Shown: piece after piece, positions 2,294 through 8,314 of the stretch | Layout: each line of letters starts with the position of its first letter | Position numbering within the stretch: the stretch's first letter is position 1 | Assembly: GCF_030283145.1 (NCBI RefSeq) | Contig: NZ_JASNWE010000001.1 | Coordinates: forward strand, 310,001-374,000 | Direction of reading: 5' to 3' | DNA: 64,000 bases | Origin: Actinomadura xylanilytica | Lineage (GTDB): Bacteria; Actinomycetota; Actinomycetes; Streptosporangiales; Streptosporangiaceae | Notes under the pieces: generated by a model | What the model saw: the letters and a program-made list of their open reading frames with translations, nothing else | What the model was told of the DNA's origin: nothing | Databases searched by the model: none | Made by a program: the position numbers and the translations under genes

Positions 2294-2346
2294 GGACCAG
2301 CTCCTCGTGACGGAGTGACGACCTGACTGCGATTCGGAATGCCGTA

Positions 2347-2367
2347 CGACAATGTCGAACAATGTAC
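2347..2367. promoter_or_regulatory. Tandem IclR/GylR-type operators between glpD and its regulator
   Basis: CGACAATGTCG (2347-2357) is an 11-bp perfect palindrome. A degenerate second copy, GAACAATGTAC (2357-2367), follows exactly 10 bp later, one helical turn. The same palindrome reappears beyond the regulator gene at 3165-3175. Position between divergent glpD and iclR genes fits an autoregulated glycerol operator of the Streptomyces GylR kind; the binding protein is inferred from context. Confidence 0.6.
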
Positions 2368-2383
2368 ACGCTAGGCTGAAGGG

Positions 2384-3151
2384 GTGCCAGGGAGAATCCA
2401 GTCGGTCGAGCGGGCCGCGACGATCCTGCGACTGCTGGCCTCCGGCCCCCGGCAGCTCGGCGTCGTGGAACTCGCCGACGCGTTGCGGCTGCCCAAGGCC
2501 ACGGTGCACGGCATCCTTCAGACGCTCCAGCACGTCGGGTTCGTCGAGCAGGACCGGGCCGGCGGCAAGTACCGCCTCGGCGCCACCCTGCTGCACCTCG
2601 GCAACAGCTACCTCGACGTCAATGAGCTGCGCACCCGGGCGCTCAACTGGGCCGACTCGCTGGCCTCGCGGGCCAGGGAGAGCGTGCGGATCGGATCGCT
2701 GCACGAGGGCCGGGTGCTGGTCGTGCACCACGTCTTCCGCCCCGACGACAGCCTCCAGACCCTCGACGTCGGGGCGCTGCTGCCGATCCACGCGTCCGCG
2801 CTGGGCAAGGCGCTGCTGGCCTTCGACCTCCAGGCCGACACGCTGCTGGCCGACCTCGACACCAAGACCTACACCCGCCACACCATCGCCGCCAAGGACG
2901 ACCTGGTCGCCGACCTCGACCTGGTCCGCGCCCGCGGCTGGGCCTGCGACATCGAGGAGCTGATCGAGGGCGAGGCCGCGATCGCGGCGCCGATCCGCGA
3001 CGACCGCACCGTGGTGGTCGGCGCGATCGGCGTCTCCGGCGCCATCGAGCGGGTCTGCGATCCGGCCGGGCTGCCGCGCACCGACCTGGTGGCGGCCGTC
3101 CGGGACGCGGCCCGCGCGGTGTCCCGCGATCTGGGCGCCCGCCGCTGGTGA
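2384..3151 (+). CDS. IclR-family regulator of glycerol genes (GylR-like)
   Basis: 255 residues. The winged HTH occupies residues about 5-65 (IQSVERAATILRLLASG, then LRLPKATVHGILQTLQHVGF), and the IclR effector domain about 75-250 with the characteristic LGKALLAF and RARGWACDIEE segments. IclR proteins bind as dimers or tetramers to short palindromes and are released or stabilised by small metabolites. The location next to glpD and glpK matches GylR, the glycerol repressor of Streptomyces, so glycerol 3-phosphate is the likely ligand (inference). The GTG start follows GAAGGG closely, and the operators lie 17-37 bases upstream, which supports autoregulation. Confidence 0.88.
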   Translation: MPGRIQSVERAATILRLLASGPRQLGVVELADALRLPKATVHGILQTLQHVGFVEQDRAGGKYRLGATLLHLGNSYLDVNELRTRALNWADSLASRARESVRIGSLHEGRVLVVHHVFRPDDSLQTLDVGALLPIHASALGKALLAFDLQADTLLADLDTKTYTRHTIAAKDDLVADLDLVRARGWACDIEELIEGEAAIAAPIRDDRTVVVGAIGVSGAIERVCDPAGLPRTDLVAAVRDAARAVSRDLGARRW

Positions 3152-3164
3152 TCCCGGCCGCGTT

Positions 3165-3175
3165 CGACATTGTCG
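3165..3175. promoter_or_regulatory. Second copy of the glp palindrome, downstream of the IclR gene
   Basis: CGACATTGTCG is the same palindrome as at 2347-2357 (they are complements of each other); the match extends over 13 bp (3163-3175 against 2347-2359, inverted). It lies 14 bases after the regulator's stop and 139 bases before the methyltransferase start, so it may allow looping or mark a formerly linked glp gene. Confidence 0.5.
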
Positions 3176-3243
3176 ACCCGGTTGCGAAATCCAGGCCCCC
3201 GGCTGAACCCGCCCGATCCTCCGCCCGACAGCCGGACAGTCCG

Positions 3244-3260
3244 GTTCATGATTCATAAAC
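3244..3260. promoter_or_regulatory. Shared palindrome, copy A (upstream of methyltransferase)
   Basis: GTTCATGA-T-TCATAAAC is a 17-bp dyad with 7 of 8 arm positions paired. It aligns centre-to-centre with the stronger copies at 4591-4609 and 5963-5979 (consensus RTYYRTGA-W-TCRYARAY). It ends 53 bases before the methyltransferase ATG, a promoter-proximal position. Confidence 0.55.
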
Positions 3261-3313
3261 TCTGCTGCACAGGTTGCCCGCGCACCACCCCCGCGACGAG
3301 GCGAGGACGCTAC

Positions 3314-4138
3314 ATGAGCGAACCGGAGAACGTCCCGCCGGACGTCGATCTGGACAAGGCGAGCCCGGCCCGGCTGTACGACTACTTCCTGGGCGGCAAG
3401 GACAACTACCCCATCGACCGCGAGGCCGCCGAGCGGATCCGCGCGGTGGTGCCCGAACTGGAGGACATCGCCTGGGCCAACCGCGGATTCCTCCAGCGGG
3501 CCGTGCACCGGCTCGCCGCCCTGGGGATCCGGCAGTTCATCGACGTCGGGGCCGGGCTGCCGACGCAGAACAACACCCATCAGGTCGCCCAGGCCGTCGA
3601 CCCCGCCGCGCGGGTGCTGTACGCCGACAACGACCCGATGGTGCTCGCGCACGCCCGTGCGCTGCTCGCCGGCTCCCCCGACACCGCGGCCATCACCGCC
3701 GACCTCCGCGAACCCGAGGAGCTCCTCGGGCAGCCCGCCGTCCGCGAGCTCATCGACTTCACCCAGCCGGTCGCGCTGCTGCTGGTGGCGGTCCTGCACT
3801 TCATCGGCGACGAGGACGACCCGCGGGGGCTGATCGGCCGCTACCTGGACGCACTGCCCCCCGGCAGCTACCTGGCGCTCTCGCACGGCACCGCCGACCA
3901 CCAGGCGCCGCAGGCGCTCAGGGCGATCGACGGCGTCTACTCCAAGGCCACCGCGAACGCCTTCTTCCGCACCCGGGACGAGATCACCGGATTCTTCGAC
4001 GGCCTCGAGCTCCTGCCCCCGCACGAGGGCTCCGCCCCCGGGGTGGCCTTCTCCGGGGACTGGGGCGCCGACAACCCCGAGAGCTCCGACAACGACGGTT
4101 CCCGCTGGGTGTACTGCGGTGTCGCGAGGGTGCCCTGA
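3314..4138 (+). CDS. SAM-dependent methyltransferase, DUF574 / Methyltransf_19 family
   Basis: 274 residues. The opening residues carry the family hallmark SPARLYDYFLGGKDNYPIDREAAER (split here: SPARLYDYFLGGKDNYPIDR at about 17-36). The Rossmann fold for S-adenosylmethionine starts with FIDVGAGLPTQNNTHQVAQ (about 76-94) and continues with VLYADNDPMVLAHARALL. Substrates of this actinobacterial family are unknown. The ATG at 3314 is preceded by GAGGCGAGGA; the frame is open further upstream but that part lacks family similarity. The following gene is a DUF397 protein on the same strand, 44 bases away. Members often sit near XRE/DUF397 regulators, as here. Function beyond methyl transfer is not known. 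Confidence 0.9.
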   Translation: MSEPENVPPDVDLDKASPARLYDYFLGGKDNYPIDREAAERIRAVVPELEDIAWANRGFLQRAVHRLAALGIRQFIDVGAGLPTQNNTHQVAQAVDPAARVLYADNDPMVLAHARALLAGSPDTAAITADLREPEELLGQPAVRELIDFTQPVALLLVAVLHFIGDEDDPRGLIGRYLDALPPGSYLALSHGTADHQAPQALRAIDGVYSKATANAFFRTRDEITGFFDGLELLPPHEGSAPGVAFSGDWGADNPESSDNDGSRWVYCGVARVP

Positions 4139-4182
4139 ACCGTCCAGGCCGTAACGTCGTACGGCCACGAGAGGAGACCCTG

Positions 4183-4503
4183 ATGACCGAAGACCCCAAG
4201 GCCCGGGGCGTGCCCGCGCGCAAGCCCACCGTCCAGGAGCTGGGCCTCGACCCGGACGCCCTGCACTGGCGGCGGTCCGCTGCCGGGACGGCGGACGGCG
4301 GCACGGCGCCCGATCCCACCTCACCCGATCCCACGGCGTCCGGCGTCGAGGCGTCCGGCGTCGAGGTCGCGTTCGCCGGCGCGTGGGTGCTGCTGCGCAC
4401 CAGCGGCGATCCCGGCGCGCTGATCTCGGTGTTCGACCACCACGAGTGGGACTGCTTCCTCGCCGGGGTGAAGGCGGAGGAGTTCGACCGCGCCGCGTCC
4501 TGA
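4183..4503 (+). CDS. DUF397-like protein with an expanded linker
   Basis: 106 residues. The fold signature is split: LHWRRSA (residues 27-33) and VEV, then VLLRTSGDPGALISVFDHHEWDCF (about 68-91; here quoted in part) and FLAGVKAEEFD, which match the WRKSS...VAVRDS...WxxFLxGVxxGEFD pattern of DUF397. A Pro/Asp/Ser/Thr-rich stretch separates the halves, and it contains a perfect 15-bp tandem repeat (GCGTCCGGCGTCGAG at 4336-4350 and 4351-4365). DUF397 proteins are small partners of XRE regulators of the WhiJ type. GAGGAG precedes the ATG. Probably cotranscribed with the methyltransferase. Confidence 0.8.
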   Translation: MTEDPKARGVPARKPTVQELGLDPDALHWRRSAAGTADGGTAPDPTSPDPTASGVEASGVEVAFAGAWVLLRTSGDPGALISVFDHHEWDCFLAGVKAEEFDRAAS

Positions 4504-4590
4504 CCCGTCCGACCCCGCCCGTCCATCCCCGCCCGTCCGTTCTTGGTCCCTTGCTTCCGCACCATTCGGAACGCCCGACCGGGCCACTGG

Positions 4591-4609
4591 AATTTGTGAT
4601 TCACAAATT
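4591..4609. promoter_or_regulatory. Shared palindrome, copy B (upstream of XRE operon)
   Basis: AATTTGTGATTCACAAATT is a perfect 19-bp palindrome with a single central base, striking because it is A/T-rich in very GC-rich surroundings. It abuts the ribosome-binding site of the 13-codon leader frame at 4620 and is 49 bases before the XRE start. Most likely the operator through which the XRE protein represses its own operon. Confidence 0.75.
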
Positions 4610-4619
4610 GGGAGGCGAT

Positions 4620-4661
4620 ATGCTGGCCAGAGCGCGCTGTCAAGAGGGAGGTGACGCGTGA
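4620..4661 (+). CDS. Possible 13-residue leader peptide coupled to the XRE gene
   Basis: ATG at 4620 follows GGGAGG with 5-6 bases spacing and opens a frame coding MLARARCQEGGDA. Its TGA (4659-4661) overlaps the GTG start of the XRE gene (4658-4660), the geometry of translational coupling. It may be a real upstream frame controlling XRE translation, or chance: the sequence is short and there is no comparative evidence. The XRE gene also has its own good ribosome site (GAGGGAGG), so coupling would not be obligatory. Confidence 0.35.
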   Translation: MLARARCQEGGDA

Positions 4662-5509
4662 CCGAGGACGCCCCCGGATCCACCATCGCCAAGCGGCGGC
4701 TGTCCCGCCTGCTCACCGAACTGCGCCTCGACGCCGGATACACCGCCAACCAGGTCTGCGACCGGCTCAACTGGGGACGCGGCAAGGTCGGCCGGTTCGA
4801 GGCCAACCAGTGGGTCCGCCCCGAGCTCAGCGACATCCGCGACATCGCCCGGCTCTACGGCCAGGTCGACGGCGACCTCGCCGAGCTGGAGAACCTCGCC
4901 GGGCTGGCCCGGCGGCGGGCCTGGTGGCGCGACCACTCCGAGGTGTTCAGCAACGAGTTCTGCGGGTTCGAGGCCGACGCCTCGGCCATCCGCGTGCTGA
5001 TGCCGCTCGTCCTGCCCGGACTGCTCCAGACGCCGGCCTACATCCAGTGCCTGATGGCCTCGGGCACGCGGCCGGCCGAGTGGCAGAGCCAGGCCCGGGA
5101 GGCGCGGCTGCGGCGGCAGGCGATCCTGAACCGCGACGACGGCACCGCGCCCACCCTGACGGCGCTGATCACCGAGGCGTCGCTGATGTACCGGTGGGGC
5201 ACTCCGGCCGACCGGCGCGCGCAGGTCGCGCACCTGGCCGAGATGAGCCGGCGGTCCAACATCGAACTGCGGCTGCTGCGCTTCGACAACGGGCCGCACC
5301 CGGGCATGTCGACGCTGGTCAACATCTTCGACTTCCCCGGGAACGAGCCCGCGATGGTCTATCTGGAGAACGACGCGGCCATCCAGGAGATCAACGAGCC
5401 CAAGAGCGTGGAGGACTATGTAAGGATCTTCAGCCGCGTTCGCGAGGCGGCGCTCTCACCCGAAGCCACCACCGACTACCTCGAAGAACAGACCAACAAG
5501 CTGGAGTAG
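4658..5509 (+). CDS. XRE-family regulator with DUF5753 domain (WhiJ-type)
   Basis: 283 residues. The helix-turn-helix covers about residues 10-66 (LSRLLTELRLDAGYTANQVC, then GRGKVGRFEANQWVRPE). The rest is the DUF5753 domain, from about residue 95, recognisable by ALIRVLMPLVLPGLLQTPAY-like text (AIRVLMPLVLPGLLQTPAY) and VYLENDAAI. This is the architecture of WhiJ and related regulators of Streptomyces that act with a DUF397 partner in development and antibiotic control. The DUF397 gene follows after 2 bases. The GTG start has GAGGGAGG upstream. Autoregulation through the palindrome at 4591-4609 is likely. Confidence 0.9.
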   Translation: MTEDAPGSTIAKRRLSRLLTELRLDAGYTANQVCDRLNWGRGKVGRFEANQWVRPELSDIRDIARLYGQVDGDLAELENLAGLARRRAWWRDHSEVFSNEFCGFEADASAIRVLMPLVLPGLLQTPAYIQCLMASGTRPAEWQSQAREARLRRQAILNRDDGTAPTLTALITEASLMYRWGTPADRRAQVAHLAEMSRRSNIELRLLRFDNGPHPGMSTLVNIFDFPGNEPAMVYLENDAAIQEINEPKSVEDYVRIFSRVREAALSPEATTDYLEEQTNKLE

Positions 5510-5511
5510 AC

Positions 5512-5709
5512 ATGGACCCGTCTCAGGCAAGGTGGTTCAAGGCCACGTCCAGCACCGGCAGCAACGGCGGCTGCGTCGAAGTCGCCGACCTCGGCTCCGC
5601 CACGGGACTCCGTGACAGCAGGACGCCCGAGGCCGGTGCGCACGTCATCGACCGCGGCGCCTTCCGTGCCTTCCTCTCCGATGTGAAGGCCGGACGCTAC
5701 GACCGCTAG
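5512..5709 (+). CDS. DUF397 protein, partner of the XRE regulator
   Basis: 65 residues, the usual DUF397 length. Motifs in order: ARWFKATSSTGSNGGCVEVA (residues 6-25), GLRDSRTPEAG, and FRAFLSDVKAGRYD near the end. It starts 2 bases after the XRE stop, so the two are cotranscribed and probably translationally coupled. In WhiJ-type pairs the small protein modulates the regulator's DNA binding; a toxin/antitoxin-like relation has also been proposed for relatives. The transcript ends at the strong hairpin 5733-5768. Confidence 0.92.
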   Translation: MDPSQARWFKATSSTGSNGGCVEVADLGSATGLRDSRTPEAGAHVIDRGAFRAFLSDVKAGRYDR

Positions 5710-5732
5710 CTGAGTCGCCGGACCACCCACCG

Positions 5733-5768
5733 GACGATCCCCCGGGGCTGCATCCCCGGGGGATCGTC
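5733..5768 (+). terminator. Strong hairpin terminator after XRE-DUF397
   Basis: Perfect 15-bp arms: 5733-5747 (GACGATCCCCCGGGG) pairs with 5754-5768, loop of 6 (CTGCAT). No clear T-run follows, which is common for actinobacterial terminators. It lies 24 bases after the DUF397 stop. Confidence 0.8.
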
Positions 5769-5962
5769 ATGTGCGGCCCGTCTCAGGCGTGCCCCACCGT
5801 ACAGGGACACCCTGACAGACATCCGGCCTCTGACGACAGATGCGGTCAAGACCCCCAAGACTGTGCATTTCGTACCACTTTGCCCGCTCCGGTGCGCATT
5901 ACCGCTGCATCGCGGGCACCTTTCTGCCCGAAGAGCTTGTTCCGTCCCGCCATGGCTCTTAA

Positions 5963-5979
5963 TCTGTGAATCGCAGATA
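5963..5979. promoter_or_regulatory. Shared palindrome, copy C, in the 432-bp gap before the ATPase gene
   Basis: ATCTGTGA-A-TCGCAGAT has 7 of 8 arm positions paired and matches copies A and B. The gap 5710-6141 holds the terminator at 5733-5768, then about 190 bases with lower GC and no convincing gene, then this site, 162 bases before the ATPase start. A 29-codon frame (5999-6087, opening MHMSRMRTGG) follows the site but lacks a ribosome site, so I do not call it. Confidence 0.6.
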
Positions 5980-6141
5980 GCGAGTCACGAACCTTGGATG
6001 CACATGTCGCGAATGAGGACCGGCGGGCCCGCGCTCGGCCCGTCCGGCGCCGGGGCCCTGCTCCGGCGTCCACCCGGAGCCGCCTGACCGATGTGCGGAA
6101 CCCCCCACCCTTCCAGTCCCGTCACGGTCAGGAGCAGCACG

Positions 6142-6705
6142 ATGGCTGTGGTTCCCATCGAACGGCCCATGCGCATGCCCTGCCCGTCCGCCCTCGGTCC
6201 CCGCAGCGACGACCGGCGCCGGCTGCGCGCCACGCTCGAACTGGAGGCGCTGGCCTCGTCGGTGCCCGCCGCGCGCCACTTCGTCGGCGCGACGCTGCGC
6301 GGCTGGCGGCTGGCGGAACTCGCGGACGACGCGACGCTGGTGGTCACCGAGATCGTGACCAACGCCTACCAGGCCCTGATGGAGGCCACCGGGGAACCAC
6401 TCCCGGTCCTGACCGGCGCCCACCCGGCGCCCGCGGGCGGGCATGCGGCGACCGGCGGTCGCGGGGGCGCCGCCGGGCCGCGCCCGCCTGTGATCACGAT
6501 GCGGCTCGGGCTGGCCGGGGCGGTGCTGTCGATCGAGGTCGAGGACGGCATCGCGGCACTCCCCCGGCGGTCGGACGCCGGCGACTACGACGAGAACGGG
6601 CGCGGCCTGCTCCTGGTCGGCGCCCTGGCCGACCGGTGGGGCTGCCGCCGCGCCGAGCGGCATCCCGGCAAGGTCGTCTGGGCCGAGCTGCCTCTTCCGT
6701 CCTGA
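6142..6705 (+). CDS. RsbW-like ATP-binding protein (HATPase_c, anti-sigma-type kinase)
   Basis: 187 residues. Bergerat-fold features: N box LVVTEIVTNAYQAL (about residues 57-70), a degenerate G1 region IEVEDG (about 131-136) and G2 box GRGLLLVGALADRWG (about 153-167). A Gly/Pro/Ala-rich insertion separates N and G1. Stand-alone proteins of this kind in Streptomyces-type organisms are serine kinases or anti-sigma relatives, or lack kinase targets, and they cluster with XRE/DUF397 genes, as here. ATG 6142 is chosen for AGGAGC 6-7 bases upstream. The palindrome at 5963-5979 ties it to the neighbouring operons. The partner is unknown. Confidence 0.85.
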   Translation: MAVVPIERPMRMPCPSALGPRSDDRRRLRATLELEALASSVPAARHFVGATLRGWRLAELADDATLVVTEIVTNAYQALMEATGEPLPVLTGAHPAPAGGHAATGGRGGAAGPRPPVITMRLGLAGAVLSIEVEDGIAALPRRSDAGDYDENGRGLLLVGALADRWGCRRAERHPGKVVWAELPLPS

Positions 6706-6712
6706 AAATCGT

Positions 6713-6725
6713 TCCCATCGTGGGA
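6713..6725. promoter_or_regulatory. Short dyad upstream of the oxidoreductase cluster
   Basis: TCCCA-TCG-TGGGA, 5-bp perfect arms, placed between the ATPase stop and the oxidoreductase GTG (48 bases before it). The local sequence is A/T-richer (GAAAATC before, TAAAG after), as in a promoter. Operator or promoter element; weak on its own. Confidence 0.3.
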
Positions 6726-6772
6726 TAAAGTGTCGTCCGCTCTGCTCGAAGTCACGCTTGGGGGACGTCGCT

Positions 6773-8299
6773 GTGCCCGATGCCCGGCCCTTGGGTGATC
6801 TCTCGCCCGAACTGCTCGGATCGTCGGTCTGGCCCGACCGGGCCGTGCTGGAGGCGGGCATTCCCGTCTACGACGTACCGCTGGTGTCGGTCGGCGGCGG
6901 GCTCGGCTCGTTCACCCTGGTCGACGCGCTCCGGATTCAGGGCGCGCCGGCGTCGTCCCTCCGGGTGCTGTCCAATCTCGACACGCCGTGGCAGACGTGG
7001 GCCTACCTCAGCCGGGTCTCGCAGCTCCCGCCCCGCGAGCGGATCCGCTCCGATGCGGGCGCGCGGCCCGACAACATCTGGGGCTTCCCGTCGTACGCCC
7101 TGCACGAAGCGTGGCGGGACCGGTCTCCCCGGCTGCTGTTCCAGGTGCTGACCGAGCCCGTCCTCACCGACTTCTTCAGCCCGCGCGCCGAGACGGTGTT
7201 CGCCACCCTCGAACGCGAGGCGGCGCGGATCTCCTACGCCGCGATGCTCGCCAAGGGGCAGGTGCGGATGGTGCGCCGCCGGGCCGGCGACGGCTACTTC
7301 ACCATCCTCACCCCGCCGGCGGGCGCGACGCCGACCAAGCGGATCGCGATCCGCTCGCGGTTCGTGCACCTGGCGGTCGGCTACCCCGGGCTGCGGTTCC
7401 TGCCCGACCTCCAGGAGTTCCGCGAGACCCACAACGACTACCACCGCGTGGTCAACGCCTACGAACCGCACGAGCACGTGTACGAGTTCCTCAAGTCGCG
7501 GCCCGGCGTGGTGGTGGTGCGGGGCGCCGGGATCGTGGCGTCCCGGGTGCTGCACCGGCTGATGGACGACCGCGAGCGGTACGGGTCGCAGACGCAGATC
7601 GTGCACATGTTCCGCACGTTCGTGTCAGGGGCGCACGGGCCGGGTCCGTGGATGCGGCGCCGGGGCGGCGACGGCTGGGCCTACCAGGCGTTCACCCTGC
7701 CCAAGTCCGCGTTCGGCGGGCAGCTCAAGGCGCGGATCAGGCGGGCGGACGGCGCCGGACGGGCCGAGCTCATGAAGGTCATCGGCGGTACCACCACACC
7801 CCGGCTGCGGCCGTGGCAGGCGCAGATGCGGGCCGGGCGGGAGGGCGGCTGGTACCACCCGGTCCAGGCCGTCGTGGACCGGGTCGAGCCCACCCCGGAC
7901 GGCCGGCTGGCCAGCCTCACCAGCAGCGACGACGGCACCCGCGCCCGGCACGTCTCCGACTTCGTCATCGACTGCACCGGGCTGGAGGCCGGCGTGCCCG
8001 AGCACCGGGTGCTGGCCGACCTGCTGGAGCACGGCGGCGCCCGGCGCAACGGCGCGGGCCGCCTCATGGTCGGCGAGAACTTCGCGGTGACCGGAACGGA
8101 GAACGGTGACGGGGTGCTCTACGCGTCGGGCGCGGCCACGGCGGGCAACCACTTCCCGGCGGTCGACAGCTTCCTCGGCCTCCAGACCGCCGCGCTGGAC
8201 ATCGCCGCCGACCTCGCCGGGCGCGGGTTCTGCGCGCGGCTCGGCCCGCTCAGGTCGACCGGGCAGTGGCTCCGGTGGGCCTCCGGCCGTCCCGTCTGA
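6773..8299 (+). CDS. Putative FAD/NAD(P)-dependent oxidoreductase, family not recognised
   Basis: 508 residues. There are two nucleotide-binding-like glycine motifs: VSVGGGLGSF (residues 38-47), and VVVRGAGIVASRVL (about 245-258). A late segment, VLYASGAATAGNHFPAVDSF, resembles the FAD-domain end of flavoprotein oxidoreductases. The overall layout recalls N-hydroxylating or Baeyer-Villiger-like flavoproteins, but I cannot assign a family or substrate. GTG 6773 is preferred over TTG 6758 because GGGGGA lies about 8 bases before it. The following genes (membrane protein, FHA protein, MFS transporter) are tightly packed on the same strand, so this is likely the first gene of an operon. Treat the enzymatic role as inference. 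Confidence 0.6.
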   Translation: MPDARPLGDLSPELLGSSVWPDRAVLEAGIPVYDVPLVSVGGGLGSFTLVDALRIQGAPASSLRVLSNLDTPWQTWAYLSRVSQLPPRERIRSDAGARPDNIWGFPSYALHEAWRDRSPRLLFQVLTEPVLTDFFSPRAETVFATLEREAARISYAAMLAKGQVRMVRRRAGDGYFTILTPPAGATPTKRIAIRSRFVHLAVGYPGLRFLPDLQEFRETHNDYHRVVNAYEPHEHVYEFLKSRPGVVVVRGAGIVASRVLHRLMDDRERYGSQTQIVHMFRTFVSGAHGPGPWMRRRGGDGWAYQAFTLPKSAFGGQLKARIRRADGAGRAELMKVIGGTTTPRLRPWQAQMRAGREGGWYHPVQAVVDRVEPTPDGRLASLTSSDDGTRARHVSDFVIDCTGLEAGVPEHRVLADLLEHGGARRNGAGRLMVGENFAVTGTENGDGVLYASGAATAGNHFPAVDSFLGLQTAALDIAADLAGRGFCARLGPLRSTGQWLRWASGRPV

Positions 8300-8314
8300 C
8301 CAAGGAGACGCACC

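Follow-up and report, generated by a model that had tools for sequence, protein, structure and literature searches.

Which genes does a regulator of the XRE-DUF397 kind control, and through what operator? The question is posed by a 64,000-nucleotide stretch of the Actinomadura xylanilytica genome (assembly GCF_030283145.1, contig NZ_JASNWE010000001.1, forward-strand positions 310,001 to 374,000; hereafter the window, in whose numbering features are given). Three 17-bp palindromes, dyads 1 to 3, each lie in front of a different gene unit: a methyltransferase gene with a DUF397 gene (unit 1), an XRE regulator gene with a second DUF397 gene, DUF397b (unit 2), and the gene of an anti-sigma-like ATPase (unit 3). 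On the basis of sequence comparison, we propose that the XRE protein encoded from position 4658 likely binds the palindrome before all three units and represses each of them.

A palindrome in front of three units

The original prediction, made from the letters of this DNA, described three dyads that align on their centres, each before a different unit, and the 17-mers were located exactly as written (Table 1). All eight arm pairs are complementary in dyad 2, and seven of the eight in dyads 1 and 3. With up to two mismatches, the pattern drawn from them matches six times on the two strands of the 64-kb window, every time at one of the three dyads, and 100 shuffles of the window gave a mean of 0.19 matches and a maximum of 3. 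In the genome-wide motif search that had been suggested along with the pattern, it is confined at 0 or 1 mismatch to the three dyad places in all 8,166,681 bases (8.17 Mb), and at two mismatches 11 further places appear; base composition leads one to expect about 0.01 exact matches. The palindrome is thus private to this locus in the genome at up to one mismatch. The same genome holds 54 DUF397, 40 DUF5753 and 21 Methyltransf_19 domain matches. The sites of the window supplied the pattern, so independent evidence has to come from other genomes, and there it holds.

Orthologues were sought in 200 family genomes plus named genome contigs. XRE orthologues with 53-71% identity occur in Actinomadura, Actinopolymorpha, Micromonospora, metagenome-assembled genomes of Dactylosporangium and Acidothermales, and many further family members; outside this group stand two intermediates, L111 (44%) and L110 (48%), and paralogues with 33-40% identity. 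The gene order methyltransferase, DUF397, XRE, DUF397, ATPase is found again in many orthologous loci. After the near-identical loci L079 and L080 had been dropped, 66 orthologous loci were left, and the number available differs between sites because each requires sufficient flanking sequence or the gene itself. Allowing at most two mismatches to the window-derived pattern, we found it before the methyltransferase in 28 of 50 loci (0.8% in dinucleotide shuffles), before XRE in 55 of 66 (0.6%), and between DUF397b and the ATPase in 52 of 63 (0.6%). Absence of the motif from orthologous loci had been named as the result that would speak against a common regulon; it is present at all three positions. 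The Actinomadura form of the unit 1 site is mostly ATTCGTGCATCACAAGT, one to three mismatches off the pattern.

Downstream of the third site, a homologue of the window ATPase is encoded in 48 of the 52 loci with a called open reading frame, the window included (6 of 58 loci had none and were left out); as 10 of the 48 homologues built the profile, 38 of 42 are independent. A Pfam ATPase domain was found in 7 of 10 proteins downstream of the third site, one of them above the cut-off.

Two variant arrangements were observed. In Actinopolymorpha pittospori the methyltransferase unit is inverted, and a dyad lies between it and XRE. In three other loci (L071 1019-1049, L073 6751-6781 and L098 7038-7068), the methyltransferase has two dyads before it, offset by 14 bases so that they overlap, and XRE has none within two mismatches.

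Distribution of the palindrome among XRE clades

Paralogous XRE loci offer a direct comparison. At two mismatches, the 300 bases before the gene and the 900 bases after it are free of the site in all 20 examined, and a DUF397 match lies beside 19 of these 20 genes. Nor is there an upstream site in five further loci of non-orthologous XRE genes (L110-L113 and L117). Together, these two counts rule out a motif common to the whole family.

Of 65 genomes of the genus, 33 have an XRE orthologue, and 32 of these contain dyads that match on both strands with at most one mismatch, against 2 of the 32 without the orthologue (Fisher 5e-15, not corrected for shared ancestry). The 32 were read by hand, 30 from listed places and two (G174 and G249) from counts of two forward and two reverse matches; the G174 sites are seen as well in L078. 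In G230 the site was found on one strand only. One of the two exceptions without an orthologue, G221, apparently carries a split one: its site has the same contig position and letters as that of L075, so that we take it to be Actinomadura madurae. In L075 itself (A. madurae DSM 43067, 6248-7080), the XRE orthologue appears in two tblastn pieces, and the surrounding dyads are kept. A scan at one mismatch covered 30 family genomes beyond the genus. Twelve of them bear an orthologue, and in 9 of these the site adjoins it; among the other 18, G022 has an exact match on one strand and several have single one-strand matches. A class-wide search at E 1e-70 was positive in 0 of 393 further genomes, with six candidates scored in each genome listed.

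The protein itself tells a similar story. In the orthologue alignment, from which L075 (split gene) and L103 were left out, the helix-turn-helix (HTH) is the most conserved part of XRE, with a recognition helix (WGRGKVGRFEAN in the window) that hardly varies. Recognition helices are available for 13 paralogues (3 + 10) and differ from that of the clade, and a search expression fitting the clade helix has no match in 10 of the 20 paralogues. A tree computed from 89 XRE proteins, L134 excluded, has a branch with a Shimodaira-Hasegawa-like approximate likelihood ratio (SH-aLRT) support of 100 that separates the 65 orthologues, L110 and L111 from 22 paralogues; L110 and L111 sit inside the orthologue side on a long branch, and the tree tool warns of long branches. 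An unsupervised search for matching dyad pairs succeeded in the window, in 22 of 61 orthologous loci and in 0 of 25 paralogous ones. Having recovered so few orthologous loci, the search lacks sensitivity, and its failure at the paralogues leaves room for different palindromes there. A second DUF574 methyltransferase gene (L138, G000:C2:451000-457000) directly adjoins another XRE-DUF5753 gene, 27% identical over part of its length; this locus has neither a DUF397 match nor a matching dyad pair.

As the motif follows the XRE clade by position, by genome and by recognition helix, and is absent at the 20 paralogues, one XRE protein over three units is the best reading. It agrees with the original prediction that the 4658 protein would control all three units, the DUF574 methyltransferase among them.

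Promoter geometry and direction of control

To place the dyads relative to promoters, sites at up to three mismatches were aligned on the dyad centre. At unit 2, 40 of 60 sites have TANNNT at positions +18 to +20. At unit 3, it stands at -10 in 22 of 58 sites, and 20 of these 22, the window among them, also have TTG at -35 to -32 with a spacer of 16-19 bases. At unit 1, CATAAT occupies -12 to -7 in 24 of 36 sites. In many loci the dyad would therefore cover the -10/start region of unit 1 and of unit 3, but the -35 region of unit 2, which suits a repressor; the direction of control, which the original prediction had left open, would thus be repression. No plus-strand terminator is predicted between the units, so their separateness is something we infer.

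In the circuit that we propose, the XRE protein would bind as a dimer to the 17-bp palindrome of each unit and block RNA polymerase, repressing its own XRE-DUF397 operon, the methyltransferase-DUF397 operon and the anti-sigma-like ATPase gene. A signal would lift repression, perhaps via the DUF397 partners or by binding to the C-terminal domain of XRE, whereupon methyltransferase, ATPase and more XRE and DUF397 protein would be released together, and the ATPase might then act on a sigma-factor partner.

Several findings weigh against this circuit. A site within two mismatches is missing before unit 1 in 22 of 50 loci, before unit 2 in 11 of 66 and before unit 3 in 11 of 63. At least one of the misses at unit 1 (L050) is an artefact in which a remote methyltransferase was chosen; among the three sites, the weakest is site 1. 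One locus, L091, has no site at all. The intermediates L110 and L111 (44-48% identity) have a similar helix, yet no dyad. Two-strand dyads also occur in genomes that yielded no orthologue at the thresholds applied (G201:C5:169224-169240 in the genus, G058:C8:242618-242634 and G197:C1:6841309-6841325 outside it), and G214, G240 and G186 each hold an additional one away from the locus; the motif is consequently not strictly private in every genome. As to the promoters, 36 of 58 unit 3 sites lack TANNNT at -10, and where it is present four of its letters are the dyad's own, which makes TTG the more independent part; unit 1 of the window displays no clear -10, and a consensus sigma-70 scan of 3150-6800 found no promoter.

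A relative, moreover, can activate: WhiJ9 of Streptomyces venezuelae is an activator of iosA and acts through direct repeats that lie 113 bp upstream (PMC10294661). One may accordingly picture an XRE protein that binds the three dyads, activates the methyltransferase and ATPase units and represses only itself, an arrangement that we regard as possible but unlikely. WhiJ9 is needed for iosA activation, and the whiJ9 transcript is 2-fold up in the whiJ9 mutant, which fits autorepression (PMC10294661); Scr1/Scr2 regulates antibiotic production positively (PMC6262351). However, in many loci the predicted -10/start is overlapped by the dyad at unit 1 and at unit 3, an odd place for an activator; WhiJ9 works from 113 bp upstream, and WhiJ itself has been proposed to be a repressor (PMC4255298).

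That another regulator, encoded elsewhere, or the DUF397 proteins bind the dyads, the XRE gene being merely one of the targets, seems to us very unlikely. DUF397b is conserved about as well as XRE, and the dyads in G201, G058 and G197 would find an explanation; against this, dyads adjoin XRE and track its presence across the 65 genomes, paralogues with different recognition helices are without them, and BldB has been reported not to bind DNA (PMC10294661). Scarcely credible is the notion that the palindromes are accidents or RNA hairpins serving no regulator. Short dyads are common, with 87 17-mers in the window having 7/8 arm pairs and 8 having 8/8, but a sequence that recurs at all three sites, is kept in other genera and is matched by less than 1% of shuffles is not; window shuffles, the genome-wide scan and the recurrence in orthologous loci rule out chance origin, and the region 2300-8300 gives no Rfam match at the gathering score. 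A mobile origin was likewise rejected, with no relative on plasmids at E 1e-40 and none in viral contigs, and PADLOC yielded no match among six proteins that would indicate a defence role.

Repression by XRE may be extended to a closed sensory circuit, which we consider quite unlikely and put forward as speculation. The methyltransferase would make or modify a small molecule, and its product would bind a putative phospholipase-D-like sensor domain of XRE, or of its DUF397 complex; the palindrome would thereby tie enzyme, sensor, DUF397 partners and ATPase into a self-resetting switch in development or secondary metabolism.

Genes of the locus and related systems

The genes follow one another, by Pfam, as IclR regulator, Methyltransf_19, DUF397, XRE (HTH_31 plus DUF5753), DUF397 and HATPase_c_2. 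Matches above cut-off (Table 1) uphold the assignments made earlier from the sequence: a DUF574 methyltransferase, two DUF397 proteins, an XRE regulator and an RsbW-like ATPase.

Table 1. Coordinates of genes, dyads and predicted promoter elements in the window
Feature	Position	Strand	Details
Dyad 1, GTTCATGATTCATAAAC	3244..3260	.	Predicted operator, methyltransferase unit
SAM (S-adenosylmethionine)-dependent methyltransferase, Methyltransf_19/DUF574, 274 aa (amino acids)	3314..4138	+	PF04672, 318.6 bits (cut-off 26)
DUF397 protein a, 106 aa	4183..4503	+	PF04149, 29.7 bits (cut-off 24); second gene of methyltransferase unit
Dyad 2, ATTTGTGATTCACAAAT	4592..4608	.	Perfect palindrome; predicted autoregulatory operator
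Predicted -10 TATGCT, XRE unit	4619..4624	+	19 bases from dyad centre
XRE regulator, 283 aa	4658..5509	+	HTH_31, 44 bits; DUF5753, 156.5 bits; both above cut-off
DUF397 protein b, 65 aa, BldB-like partner	5512..5709	+	PF04149, 55.4 bits; directly beside XRE
Predicted -35 TTGTTC, ATPase unit	5937..5942	+	17-base spacer to -10
Predicted -10 TAATCT, ATPase unit	5960..5965	+	Overlaps left arm of dyad 3
Dyad 3, ATCTGTGAATCGCAGAT	5962..5978	.	Predicted operator, ATPase unit
RsbW/AbaA-like ATPase	6091..6705	+	HATPase_c_2, 29.8 bits (cut-off 27.4); start possibly 6142

DUF397b is 48-80% identical in 21 aligned orthologous rows, and a fold search with DUF397 gave no significant match. Against the Sco1979 family regulator model NF058600, XRE scores 136.1 bits, below the curated cut-off of 350. 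The methyltransferase has relatives of its own family in the Protein Data Bank, 3giw/3go4 and 2qe6 (DUF574/Methyltransf_19); a ligand of unknown identity in 3giw suggested small-amine or catechol methyltransferases, with regulation not addressed in the accessible text (PMC2954221). The stretch from dyad 3 to the ATPase holds a short reading frame (MSRMRTGG..., 6004-6087) that begins in a manner resembling the ATPase start region of several relatives, and this likeness leaves the start of the window ATPase uncertain (6091 or 6142). A 513-amino-acid protein encoded 52 bases after the ATPase (6758-8299) has no Pfam or NCBIfam match and no tblastn match in related loci.

The gene set is already known. 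As in WhiJ-BldB-AbaA clusters, an XRE HTH protein with DUF5753 adjoins a DUF397 gene and lies near an AbaA-like HATPase gene. In the whiJ locus of Streptomyces coelicolor (SCO4542-4544), WhiJ is likewise accompanied by a small DUF397-type partner and an antisigma-like protein, and repression by WhiJ, relieved by the small partner, has been proposed (PMC4255298, citing Ainsa 2010); according to the accessible part of that review, the targets of WhiJ are unknown and no methyltransferase unit such as the present one is described. WhiJ9-BldB9-iosA resembles our locus in that an XRE (WhiJ) gene beside a DUF397 (BldB) gene controls a neighbouring unit and bears signs of autorepression, with the ATPase and methyltransferase here taking the place of iosA (PMC10294661). 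The operators differ, however. WhiJ9 recognizes three direct repeats, CGXXCTCAAC, at the stated distance from the iosA start (PMC10294661), in contrast to the palindrome at three promoters proposed here. This repeat has six exact matches in the window and none in 3244-6705, although a repeat known for one member is hardly defining. The label WhiJ-type, given in the original prediction, therefore fits the gene set and fails for the operator, since the single WhiJ-family site mapped in the literature examined consists of direct repeats.

Scr1/Scr2 and 14 other XRE-DUF397 pairs of S. coelicolor resemble unit 2 as gene pairs acting as regulators, and were studied by overexpression (PMC6262351, PMC10364602). 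The string 'palindrom' occurs in the main text of neither paper, and 'operator' does not occur in that of PMC10364602. XRE-DUF397 pairs have also been proposed to be type II toxin-antitoxin systems (PMC2701414). Among the matches listed, open-access papers hold no description of this palindrome for an XRE-DUF397 gene, which is not proof of absence. As far as we have seen, what is new is the predicted palindromic operator common to three units, its apparent tie, in several actinobacterial genera, to a single XRE clade, and the presence of a methyltransferase unit under such a putative operator.

Actinomycetes encode dozens of XRE-DUF397 pairs, and a binding site has been mapped for just one in the accessible parts of the literature examined. 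With a short conserved palindrome and three predicted promoters, the joint working of XRE, DUF397 and ATPase becomes testable in one reporter set, and the DUF574 methyltransferases gain a regulatory context from this locus.

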